Below are positions 5,339 to 8,553 of a stretch of DNA of 34,956 nucleotides, in pieces. The notes under the pieces were generated by a model that saw only the letters and a program-made list of their open reading frames with translations, was not told where the DNA came from and ran no database searches. The position numbers and the translations under genes were made by a program. Every line of letters begins with the position of its first letter. The stretch's first letter is position 1. The DNA is from an uncultured Geobacteraceae bacterium (GTDB lineage Bacteria; Desulfobacterota; Desulfuromonadia; Geobacterales; Pseudopelobacteraceae): contig CAIYZD010000315.1 in the NCBI GenBank assembly GCA_903930585.1, positions 1 to 34,956 of the forward strand. Direction: 5' to 3'.

Positions 5339-6679
5339 TTAGAGTGCCTTTACCGCAGCTATAAATCTTTGAGCACGTTCCTCATAATCGCGGAACATGT
5401 CGAAACTTGAACAGGCGGGCGACATCAGTACCGTTCCGCCGGAAGCCGTTATCTCCGCGGAGATACTCACCGCATCCTCCAATGTTACTGCTCGGCGGGT
5501 GTCGGTTAATGTCCCGAGCTCCATATCCATTCGCTCCGCCGCTTCACCGATCAGTACCAAGTGTCGCACGCGCTCCTTTATCAGCGGTGCCAGCGGGGCA
5601 TATGCCCCTCCCTTGTCCTTGCCGCCGGCTATGAGCGTAATATCAGTGAAGCTTTCAAGCGCTTTTTCCACGCTGCCGACATTGGTGGCTTTGCTGTCTT
5701 CATAGTAGCCGACACCGTTTACTTCACGGACAAACTCCATACGATGATGGAGCGCTTCAAAACAGAGAATGGTTTCAAATGTTTCATCCGGACGACAGCC
5801 GAGCAGAAGCGCGCAGGCTACCGCAGCCATAATGTTTTCCAGATTGTGTACTCCCTGCAGCCGGATGGCGGCGGTAGGGAAACACTCCTCATGGCCGTCA
5901 TGGCGATAGGTAATTACGCCATCTGTACAGAAAATTCCCTCCTCCAGCTCTATTTTTCTGCTGAAGGGGAACAGTGCGGCTTTGAGATTCTGCGCATGCT
6001 GCCAGACAAGCGGATCATCCCGGTTGACCACGGCAAAATCGTCTTCGGTCTGATTTTCAAAAATACGCAGTTTGGCGTTTATGTAGGCCTGGTAATCGGG
6101 GTAGCGGTCGAGATGGTCCTCGCTCAGATTCAACAGCGCCGCCACGGTCGGACGAAACGAGGTGATCCACTCCAGTTGGAACGAGCTGATTTCAGCAACG
6201 ACCTGATCATATATCTCATGTGATTCCGCCAGTTCGATAAGCGGATTGCCGATGTTGCCGCCAACAAAGGTATGGTACCCATTGTGCTTGAAGATCGCGC
6301 CGAGGATGGTGGTAGTCGTTGTTTTGCCGTTGGTACCGGTGATTGCCGCTAACGGCGCATCGATAAACCGTGCAGCAAGCTCGATCTCGCTGATAATTTC
6401 ACGTCCTGTACGGTGTGCCGCAACCAGTTGCGGCAGATCCATCGGCACGCCGGGAGAAACCACTATCAGGTCGCTGGTCAGGAAGGTTGCTTCGTCATGT
6501 CGTTCCAGCTGGCTGGTGATATCGTAGGCTGCCAGTTCTGCCAGTTGTACTGTAAGAGCCGATTCACTCCGCATGTCGGTGACGGTTACCCGTGCCCCTT
6601 TTGAGGCCAGAAAGCGGGCACAGGCGACGCCGGTTTTGGCGAGCCCGACGACGAGGACTTTTTTGTTTTTAAGCTCCAT
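5339..6679 (-). CDS. murD: UDP-N-acetylmuramoyl-L-alanine--D-glutamate ligase
   Basis: MurD adds D-glutamate to UDP-MurNAc-L-Ala with ATP. The 446-residue length is standard. Visible motifs are the N-terminal [17 protein letters not shown] (8-24), the P-loop [10 protein letters not shown] (114-123), [19 protein letters not shown] with the residues that bind Mg and the carbamylated lysine, [14 protein letters not shown], and [11 protein letters not shown] in the C-terminal domain. The start has AAGG nine bases upstream. In most dcw clusters murD directly follows mraY; here an ORF6N gene and about 290 bp of additional non-coding DNA separate them. Confidence 0.97.
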
Positions 6680-6813
6680 ATAGTATTGCCTTAGAATCCG
6701 GTGTTATTTTCCTGTCAACGGTTTTATGGGGTGCCGGAACTGCTAATCCTGCTGCATCCGGCGATCAACTCAAATGGACCATTTATCCTGTGGATATAAG
6801 TAACGCACTTTAT

Positions 6814-7323
6814 TCATTCTCTCCCAAACCCGATTGGCCGTTTTTTCTTCGATTCCGGCGGGGTCATCAATTGCCGGATGGCATCGAAAACCATCTTGAA
6901 CTGGGAATCGTACTTCTTCTCCAGGTTTTCCAATTTCGCCGCCAGATCCTTGTGTGTTGAGATTATCTCACGGAGTTTGACAAAAGCTCTGACAACCTGG
7001 ACACTCACTGCAACAGCAAGAGGCGTGTTCAGGACACTTGCGGCCATAATAGTGCCATGTTCGGTAAAGGCGTATGGCAGGTTTCGTGAGAATTTTAATT
7101 TTGAGAGGTGGTCGCAATTTGCGACCACCTCTATTTTTTCTGTTGAAGACAGTTGGAACATGAAATCTTCAGGAAAGCGCTCTCTGTTACGGCGTACTTG
7201 CTCGTTCAAGCGTTTTGTCTCAACTCCATATAACACGGCAAGGTATGCATCGAGCATGACCCTTTCTCCGCGAATCACAAGTATCTTTTGCTTAATGAGT
7301 TCAGCAGGAATCATATCTTTCAT
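6814..7323 (-). CDS. ORF6N-domain (phage-type) DNA-binding protein
   Basis: The 169-residue product has the ORF6N domain seen in phage and prophage proteins related to KilA-N/Bro: IRGERVMLDAYLAVLYGVET (18-37, recognised by VMLD..LA.LYGVET), RFPEDFMFQL (49-58) and LPYAFTEHGTIMAASVLNTP (82-101). A charged stretch likely to form a coiled coil follows (LAAKLENLEKKYDSQFKMVFDA), then a basic tail. The start has GGAGGG four bases upstream. It sits in the dcw operon between mraY and murD, in the same orientation, with no other phage gene nearby. Residues 64-73 are encoded by a perfect 29-bp palindrome, and three related palindromes lie just upstream. The domain is generally taken to bind DNA; the target and role are unknown. 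A self-regulating or selfish element is inferred. Confidence 0.88.
   Translation of the reverse strand: MKDMIPAELIKQKILVIRGERVMLDAYLAVLYGVETKRLNEQVRRNRERFPEDFMFQLSSTEKIEVVANCDHLSKLKFSRNLPYAFTEHGTIMAASVLNTPLAVAVSVQVVRAFVKLREIISTHKDLAAKLENLEKKYDSQFKMVFDAIRQLMTPPESKKKRPIGFGRE
7104..7132. repeat. Palindrome P4, inside the ORF6N coding sequence
   Basis: This is a perfect 29-bp inverted repeat: arms 7104-7117 and 7119-7132, centre 7118, core GTCGCAATTTGCGAC. It lies in codons 64-73 of the ORF6N gene and encodes EVVANCDHL. It shares its core with three palindromes upstream of the same gene, although the outer arms differ. It could be an operator, an RNA hairpin or an inserted element. Confidence 0.9.
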
Positions 7324-7332
7324 CGTCCCTCC

Positions 7333-7363
7333 ATCAGGTGGTCACAGTTTGTGACAACCTGAT
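7333..7363. repeat. Palindrome P1, upstream of the ORF6N gene
   Basis: Inverted repeat with 15-bp arms around position 7348 and two mismatched pairs (7347/7349 and 7340/7356), core GTCACAGTTTGTGAC. It ends 9 bp before the ORF6N start codon and abuts its ribosome binding site. In an mRNA it would fold next to the start; as DNA it would suit a dimeric repressor. Confidence 0.88.
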
Positions 7364-7368
7364 TTCAA

Positions 7369-7399
7369 AACTTAAAGTCACAATTTGTGACTTTAAGTT
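7369..7399. repeat. Palindrome P2, upstream of the ORF6N gene
   Basis: Perfect 31-bp inverted repeat with 15-bp arms around position 7384, core GTCACAATTTGTGAC. The outer arms (AACTTAAA/TTTAAGTT) differ from the other copies yet are fully self-complementary. It is only 5 bp from P1. Confidence 0.9.
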
Positions 7400-7426
7400 G
7401 GTAACATATCAATAAATATGGCTTTC

Positions 7427-7455
7427 CTTTGAAGTCGCAAATTGCGACCTCAAAG
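7427..7455. repeat. Palindrome P3, just after mraY
   Basis: Inverted repeat with 14-bp arms around position 7441 and one mismatch (7433/7449), core GTCGCAAATTGCGAC. It lies 21 bp past the mraY stop, between mraY and the ORF6N gene. The core has the G/C form seen in P4 rather than the A/T form seen in P1 and P2. Confidence 0.88.
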
Positions 7456-7476
7456 ATTACCTCGTGATTTTAAACG

Positions 7477-8553
7477 TCACCTCATCTTCAGTGTCGAAAT
7501 TGCCACGAGCGCCAGGATGATGCTGATAATCCAGAAGCGGACGATGATCTTCGGCTCGGCAACGCCTTTCAGTTCGAAGTGGTGATGAATCGGGGCCATG
7601 CGGAAGATCCGTTTGCCGCGATACTTGTAGGAACCGACCTGGAAAATAACCGACAGCGCCTCGACGACAAAGATACCGCCAACGATTACCAGCAGGATCT
7701 CCTGCTTGGTCAGCACCGCAATGGTTCCCAGCGTTCCCCCCAGTGAGAGCGAGCCGACGTCCCCCATGAAAATCTCGGCAGGATATGAGTTGTACCAGAG
7801 GAAACCAAGCCCGGCTCCAACCATGGCGCCGCATAATACGGCCAGTTCGCCGGCCCCTGCTACGCGCGGAATCTGCAGGTAGGCCGACAGTGTGGCGTGT
7901 CCGGCGATGTAGGAAAAGAGCATATAGGTGGCGGCATTGATCGCCACCGGCCCGATGGCAAGCCCGTCAAGTCCGTCTGTAAGGTTGACGGCGTTGCTGG
8001 CGCCGACGATTACCAGGATGACAAACGGGATGAACCAGACCCAGAGGTCAGGGTGAAAATTTTTGAAGAGCGGAAAATAGAGAATTTCATTGAACTCGGG
8101 CTTGATGAACAAAAACAGGGCGACCGACCCGGCCAGTACGACCTGCCAGAACATCTTCTGGCGGGCGGATAAACCCCTGGTATTTTTCTCGACAACTTTT
8201 TTATAATCGTCAATAAAGCCGATCAGACCGTATCCGACAGTAATGAAAAGTGTGATCCAGATATACTGATTGGTAAGATCGGCCCAGAGCAAGGTCGGTA
8301 TGACGATTGCCGACAGGATTATGACGCCTCCCATGGTGGGTGTGCCCTGCTTCTGCAGATGCGATTCCGGACCGTCGGTACGGATGACCTGACGCGCCTG
8401 CATCGACTCCAGTTTACGGATGATCCAGGGGCCAAGGACAAAGCATACTATCAGCGCCGTGATCATGGCGTAGATAGTACGGAACGTCAGGTATTTAAAT
8501 ATGTTAAACAGTTTGATGTTGGTCGCGAGCGGATAAAAAATGTGGTAGAGCAT
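7477..8553 (-). CDS. mraY: Phospho-N-acetylmuramoyl-pentapeptide transferase
   Basis: MraY is the polytopic inner-membrane enzyme that moves phospho-MurNAc-pentapeptide to undecaprenyl phosphate to form lipid I. The 358-residue protein has about ten membrane spans. Family motifs include [14 protein letters not shown] in the first third, [34 protein letters not shown] with the catalytic aspartates, [12 protein letters not shown], and the C-terminal [13 protein letters not shown]. It follows murF with a 3-bp gap. On its downstream side, where murD would be expected, lie the palindromes and the ORF6N gene. Confidence 0.97.

Follow-up and report, generated by a model that had tools for sequence, protein, structure and literature searches.

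What keeps a palindrome symmetrical while its sequence changes, and why should it lie inside a protein-coding gene? These questions are raised by a contig of an uncultured Geobacteraceae bacterium, analysed here over a window (that is, the whole stretch of DNA under study) of 34,956 bases, from a parent assembly of 5,891,692 bases in 854 contigs that is 93% complete with 5.3% contamination. On its minus strand the window carries a gene for an ORF6N-domain protein of 169 amino acids (6814..7323), accompanied by three upstream palindromes (P1, P2 and P3) and by a fourth, P4 (7104-7132), within the gene itself. P4 is perfect, reads AGAGGTGGTCGCA-AAT-TGCGACCACCTCT on the gene strand and encodes E65-L73, the peptide EVVANCDHL. 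We argue that P4 is probably a DNA operator situated within the coding sequence of its own reader, where a dimer of the ORF6N protein would bind and probably repress the gene that encodes it. Taken by itself, autoregulation is the likeliest use of such a site and, in our judgement, a rather likely one; its main rival is the recognition of self for purposes of exclusion.

Palindromes of the ORF6N locus

The first-pass annotation of this DNA had described four palindromes sharing a core, GTCRCA-N3-TGYGAC, that alternates between TCACA/TGTGA and TCGCA/TGCGA. All four are present where it placed them, P2 and P4 perfect and P1 and P3 with one mismatch each, as is the alternation, with TCACA in P1 and P2 and TCGCA in P3 and P4. 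P1 (7333-7363) ends 9 nt ahead of the start codon, with GGAGG within those 9 nt, P2 occupies 7369-7399, and P3 (7427-7455) starts 21 nt past the stop codon of mraY. They make up four of the five palindromes in the window that reach our score threshold, and across the whole assembly the core with zero mismatches occurs in P1-P4 only. It is the exact core that is distinctive: with two mismatches allowed it is not rare (7 matches in the window against 4.67 expected). The many copies in unrelated genes or intergenic regions that characterise a dispersed repeat were not found, the four exact cores in 5.9 Mb belonging to one locus. Among the 76 genomes of the bacterial family 24 contain the core; where it is centred on AAT or ATT it lies in or beside an ORF6N match, bar one case (G074:C68), and cores with other centres are scattered. 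The recurrence of the core with ORF6N genes, and its rarity elsewhere, agree with the annotation. The exceptional core, GTCACAAATTGTGAC at G074:C68:53256-53270, belongs to a genome with no ORF6N protein match.

The in-gene palindrome across ORF6N genes

The window protein is a member of the ORF6N family by its score over the whole-domain cut-off (Pfam PF10543, E=2.6e-30, 105 bits against a curated cut-off of 27.8, domain positions 1-86 of 86), and it also matches PADLOC PDC-S05 over residues 2-165 (E=1.4e-54) and the PHROG anti-repressor family (E=2.4e-22). We compared 228 distinct ORF6N genes, comprising 90 from a protein scan, 21 from the bacterial family (including the window gene) and 117 from a profile search of the phylum. 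The 80 protein-scan loci are biased to one of the two reading frames described below, frame A, the peptide patterns used for the search including part of the peptide encoded by the palindrome; the phylum set was picked by protein profile, 80 stretches having been fetched down the list of E-values with at least three entries passed over, and more matches exist.

An in-domain palindrome with a score of at least 9 is found in 210 of the 228 genes, compared with 2.3% of synonymous-codon shuffles (20 codon-shuffled versions per gene, with protein and codon usage kept). By set, the counts are 81/90 for the protein scan, 20/21 for the bacterial family and 109/117 for the profile-only phylum set. The palindrome occupies a slot between the conserved segments FQLTxEE and LPYAFTEHG, the same slot in which P4 lies, and there the same core DNA is translated in two frames, as EVVANCDHL (frame A) or as LRSQIATS and its variants (frame B). 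All but one of the 210 have an odd centre and one of two codon phases. The spacing of the half-sites is fixed and CA-N3-TG is nearly invariant, and the arms, up to 20 bp long, are self-complementary with varied sequence, symmetry extending to about position 12 from the centre in frame A or positions 13-15 in frame B and beyond that equalling the column expectation. Palindromes centred on CA-N3-TG number 187 in the 100-bp bin of the slot and 17 in the next over the 228 genes, 35 in three 100-bp bins upstream (about 226 genes each) and 0-5 in each of the other flank bins, sites inside other ORF6N domains having been masked in the flank count; they are thus concentrated in the slot and the 300 bp upstream, and are nearly absent from the rest of the flanks. 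Apparent tandem in-frame pairs of palindromes, or of palindrome-like peptides, are seen in the slot at L052, L057, L304, L317, L326, L338, L352 and L355. At L098, frame-B-type arms are translated in the A frame, an arrangement that seems to have arisen separately.

Coevolution with a predicted recognition helix

The changes in the palindrome have a counterpart in the protein, where K37, R38, E41 and Q42, all within one helix, covary with it. In the AlphaFold2 model (predicted local distance difference test score, pLDDT, 84; predicted template modelling score, pTM, 0.70) helices span residues 25-32 and 36-45, with a mean pLDDT of 96 over residues 31-40 and 97 over residues 41-50. On the strength of this model the two helices are predicted to form a helix-turn-helix with residues 37, 38, 41 and 42 on the second; structure searches found no close solved structure for this helix-turn-helix class. 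The codons of the predicted recognition helix (residues 36-45, TKRLNEQVRR), assigned from coevolution and the structure model, lie at 7189..7218 on the minus strand.

Mutual information between protein columns and half-site positions was calculated over 211 of the 228 genes (effective number 118), excluding those with a palindrome score under 6, an even-centred composite, no RN motif or a position too near the end of the open reading frame (ORF); in the preceding parse 216 genes were parsed, 5 were unparsed and 7 were dropped by score or even centre. The top pairs were residue 41 with position 4 from the centre (z 13.1) and residue 38 with position 4 (z 11.2), and further pairs outside the palindrome-encoded slot were 37 with 7 (z 7.0), 42 with 4 (z 6.7) and 41 with 5 (z 5.7). 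The dependence on residue 41 takes the form of a simple code for the base at position 4, namely G with E (94/97), A with Q (68/73), C with K (14/14) and C with R (23/26), and it is obeyed in 199 of 210 in-gene sites. Likewise, K at residue 37 goes with G at position 7 in 132 of 134. P4 fits the code for both E41 and K37. Contacts of Arg or Lys with G and of Gln with A are textbook examples of base recognition, and the residue-41 code fits these.

Kinship among the genes does not explain the code, because switches at residue 41 and at position 4 coincide both in close pairs and on a tree. Of 58 closely related gene pairs in which residue 41 switches its code, 52 also differ at position 4, the two members each obeying the code in 50, compared with 6/81 in controls; a tree of 203 genes, built without the helix and the slot, has 51 changes at residue 41 and 45 at position 4, and 55 jointly. 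Held-out genes, which were other copies in 28 genomes reached via loci of several phyla together with viral contigs, obeyed the code in 40 of 42 testable cases, including 7/7 on viral contigs (51 were parsed, 39 of them with a score of at least 9; at least three of the 51 had a misparsed helix and a score under 6, and one further gene had no parsed helix). Both exceptions combine Q41 with Q42 and R38 and have the half-site TTGCA. The combination R38-Q41-Q42 goes with TTGCA at L475 and L508 and also in 3/4 of the QQ genes of the parsed set, and genes with L41 go with TTTCA or TTGCA (L476, L522, L540). On the evidence of the sequences compared, the changes of the core are accounted for by its coevolution with this predicted helix, as for an operator bound by a dimer.

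Selection at the level of the nucleic acid

The symmetry of the arms is kept by selection on DNA. Across 161 distinct in-gene palindromes covariation is strong, with mismatches in 53 of 1771 cells (11 positions each), and the choice of synonymous codons follows the helix. In frame B the Ser codons TCG and TCA stand at 30/2 with E41 and 0/56 with Q41 (Fisher P=1.7e-21, kinship not corrected); similarly, in frame A the Cys codons TGC and TGT stand at 65/0 with E41 and 3/14 with Q41 (Fisher P=3e-13, kinship not corrected). In the outer arms, among genes with a left Leu TTG or TTA and a right Ser TCA or Leu TTA, left TTG occurs with right Ser TCA in 65 and left TTA with right Leu TTA in 17, with one exception. 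The covariation of the arms claimed in the first-pass annotation is accordingly borne out by the synonymous-codon tests and by the two reading frames, as the product of selection at the nucleic-acid level. The conserved symmetry, the selection on DNA and the helix-to-base code are all directly computed results.

A proposed self-encoded operator

From the coevolution of helix and site we infer that the ORF6N protein binds the in-gene palindrome, presumably as a homodimer, each subunit of which would contact one half-site, at positions 4-8 from the centre, through helix 36-45 lying in the major groove, such that residues 38, 41 and 42 would meet base pairs 4-5 and residue 37 would meet base pair 7. 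After a mutation in the helix the site would follow on both halves, by synonymous or tolerated codon changes. Bound protein would block RNA polymerase inside its own gene, a form of negative autoregulation, and because the operator lies within the gene, its control site would be kept by a gene landing under any promoter. P3 would be an auxiliary operator, as perhaps would P1 and P2, with lower affinity.

Several results weigh against this proposal. The outer arms, at positions 9-15 from the centre, are symmetric without a matching partner residue. Only 16 of 39 upstream palindromes obey the code (15/34 without five doubtful rows), and in the window P3 fits the local E41 protein, while the cores of P1 and P2 are of the kind that goes with Q41 proteins. 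Copies within the same genome show no diversification of the code, same-code pairs among the sampled copies numbering 37/110 against 33.0 expected. The upstream palindromes are partly unexplained; P1 and P2 may be bound more weakly, may belong to other ORF6N proteins, or may be relics.

Of the earlier interpretation, core recurrence and arm covariation stand, and the RNA hairpin and the suggestion of something 'beyond a simple operator' are not supported, the variation of the core being explained by coevolution with the helix as for a dimer operator, though one inside coding sequence. The doubt about a simple operator is not fully removed, because no cause was found for the symmetry of the outer arms and P1 and P2 do not follow the local code.

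Alternative explanations

The alternative that survives best, although we consider it unlikely, is that the protein binds the in-gene palindrome for self-recognition, either to exclude or silence incoming phage or plasmid copies of the same code or to guide its own movement. The site is in the gene and not at the promoter, viral contigs hold genes with the same sites, the ORF6N gene is sporadic (14 of 76 genomes of the bacterial family have a match), and PADLOC places the protein among phage-defence candidates (PDCs), as it does exemplars of three further families discussed below. Against this, the 169-residue window protein has no nuclease or recombinase family among its matches in Pfam, PHROG and PADLOC, and the undiversified codes of same-genome copies count here as well.

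A selected structure, either an mRNA hairpin or a DNA cruciform acting by its fold and not as a dimer operator, is a good deal less probable and would be a surprise. Long arms that stay self-complementary despite varied sequence, and outer arms that are symmetric without a matching residue, would be expected of it, and in frame A alone sense-strand G·T mismatches exceed A·C by 9 to 3. In frame B, however, the ratio is 6:14, so that over both frames there are 15 G·T, 17 A·C and 21 other mismatches, and this lack of an overall excess of wobble pairs disfavours the RNA hairpin that the first-pass annotation had considered, the test bearing on RNA alone and not on a cruciform. There is no Rfam match at the gathering threshold in 6500-7800, and a fold gives no reason for the core to track residues of the helix.

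Slightly less probable again, and very much so in absolute terms, is a mobile palindromic element, of the Rickettsia-palindrome or REP-like kind, inserted in frame, or the copying of one arm onto the other by template switching. The array of P1-P3 and the apparent tandem in-frame palindromes at L052, L057, L304, L326 and L338 are in its favour, as are sites outside ORF6N frames. A longer motif, AGRTCRCANNNTGYGAYCT, occurs in 57 of 297 genomes of the phylum (the reversed control has zero matches), and of its 33 sites in fetched loci 19 are in ORF6N frames and 14 outside, some intergenic, some relic-like and one (L415) in an unrelated coding frame. Yet 51 of the 57 genomes are among the 79 with ORF6N and 6 among the 218 without, the exact core is confined to a single locus of its own genome, and genes from many phyla have the site, almost without exception, at one slot; moreover, the helix code is predicted neither by a mobile element nor by the arm-copying that the annotation had suggested. 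Outside ORF6N frames, such palindromes are seen at L394 (~325), L412 (~1501), L389, L398 and L401, in some cases in a genome that has no ORF6N match; the reading frames that cover the L394 and L412 sites hint at tandem pairs. A self-encoded operator accounts for the data better than a hairpin, arm-copying or a dispersed repeat does.

Finally, coevolution at the protein level, with the palindrome as a by-product of codon choice, has a negligible probability: slot residues do covary with half-site positions, necessarily, being encoded by the palindrome, but the idea is already contradicted by the loss of the palindrome in codon shuffles and by synonymous Ser, Cys and Leu codons that follow the code or the opposite arm, and two frames with different peptides share the same core DNA and the same code.

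Genomic context

The ORF6N gene lies between mraY and murD and is co-directional with both, in an interval of 797 bp (6680..7476) that holds the gene and P1-P4. With the mraY stop codon and the first Met in the murD frame taken as its limits, this gap is 1-10 bp in 15 of 18 relatives of the same genus, which is why we regard the ORF6N gene with its palindromes as an insertion in the cell-wall gene cluster. Elsewhere in the genus, at L261 (G038:C62, 1-960), YefM-like and YoeB-like ORFs, named by eye from their translation, lie downstream of mraY on the opposite strand, with a palindrome-like TGTTTAAGGTCACAGATTGTGATC immediately past the mraY stop, and the contig ends ahead of any murD; at L262 mraY and murD are separated by 339 bp, and at L264 no murD was recognised nearby. 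Since these arrangements deviate, the mraY-murD junction may be an insertion hotspot. The window gene is the sole ORF6N match of the 5.9-Mb assembly, and among the best 80 of the protein scan relatives at 51-70% identity are spread over many phyla.

Related families

In-gene palindromes are found in four domain families, ORF6N (PF10543, of the PHROG anti-repressor type), Virulence_RhuM (PF13310), Bro-N (PF02498) and KilA-N (PF04383). For Virulence_RhuM, a palindrome with a score of at least 9 is present in 36/48 genes (null 3.7%), 46/48 are in one phase, and the residue before H in a recognition-like helix obeys the residue-41 code in 32/32 genes with E, Q, K or R, this column having been picked after inspection of the RhuM data (the helix was parsed in 48 ORFs and could not be parsed in a further two). 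In the other 16 genes (L, M, I, H, D, Y) the base is A with L, M or I, G with D or Y, and either of these with H. The window's own genome has such a RhuM-family gene (L437, G000:C481:9914-10648), with an in-gene palindrome of half-site GTTCCA and K in the helix, which fits the code. The counts are 17/30 for Bro-N (null 3.0%) and 15/20 for KilA-N (null 4.0%), the frame being the longest over the match site and nine proteins having been checked against Pfam; the KilA-N total comprises those loci, 20 of 22, that had sufficient length, and the overlapping L592 and L594 were left unmerged. The KilA-N genes of L574, L576, L578 and L594 contain a perfect 32-bp TTTTAAACCCRTCGAATTCGAYGGGTTTAAAA within the coding sequence.

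In PADLOC the exemplars match PDC-S05 for RhuM (2), PDC-S22 for KilA-N (2) and, as best hit, PDC-S13 for Bro-N (5); the window protein and the two RhuM exemplars thus all match PDC-S05 models. PDCs are presented, in the part of the source consulted, as candidates from 'guilt-by-embedding', most of them not validated (PMC12988326). A crude check of the flanks found no HsdM-like motif beside 62 ORF6N genes. Tentatively, and at less than even probability, these genes may form a class of horizontally spread DNA-binding genes, of ORF6N, RhuM, Bro-N and KilA-N types and with exemplars that match PADLOC candidates, which encode their own binding site in-gene and co-evolve with it by one shared code (established in two of these families). 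Such self-recognition would be portable and independent of the promoter, and it may also help to sense or silence relatives that enter the cell.

Known systems and significance

Operators inside coding sequences are known from the second operator of E. coli purR and from lac O2 in lacZ. Both resemble the present case in being repressor-type palindromes within coding sequence, that of purR in the repressor's own gene; the ORF6N in-gene site differs in that it is near-universal family-wide in many phyla, survives a change of frame and coevolves with a predicted recognition helix. Rickettsia palindromic elements and REP/RAYT are likewise palindromes that lie in genes or close to them, in some cases in frame, but these are dispersed and multi-copy, whereas the ORF6N site is tied to one gene family. 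Judged by titles and abstract openings, the papers that searches of the open-licence PubMed Central (PMC) literature listed describe no self-encoded sites or base code for these domains, and the passages of PMC12988326 and PMC13356809 on phage-defence candidates give candidacy and counts, with no mention of these sites.

If the proposal is correct, a large number of poorly understood accessory genes, with ORF6N alone present by profile search in 79 of the 297 phylum genomes, would become regulators with a target legible from their own sequence, and they would supply a helix-turn-helix class with a natural recognition code. The ORF6N gene would then be a mobile gene that carries its cis-regulation within its protein-coding sequence, and the site would offer a direct way to find out what some phage-defence candidates do.
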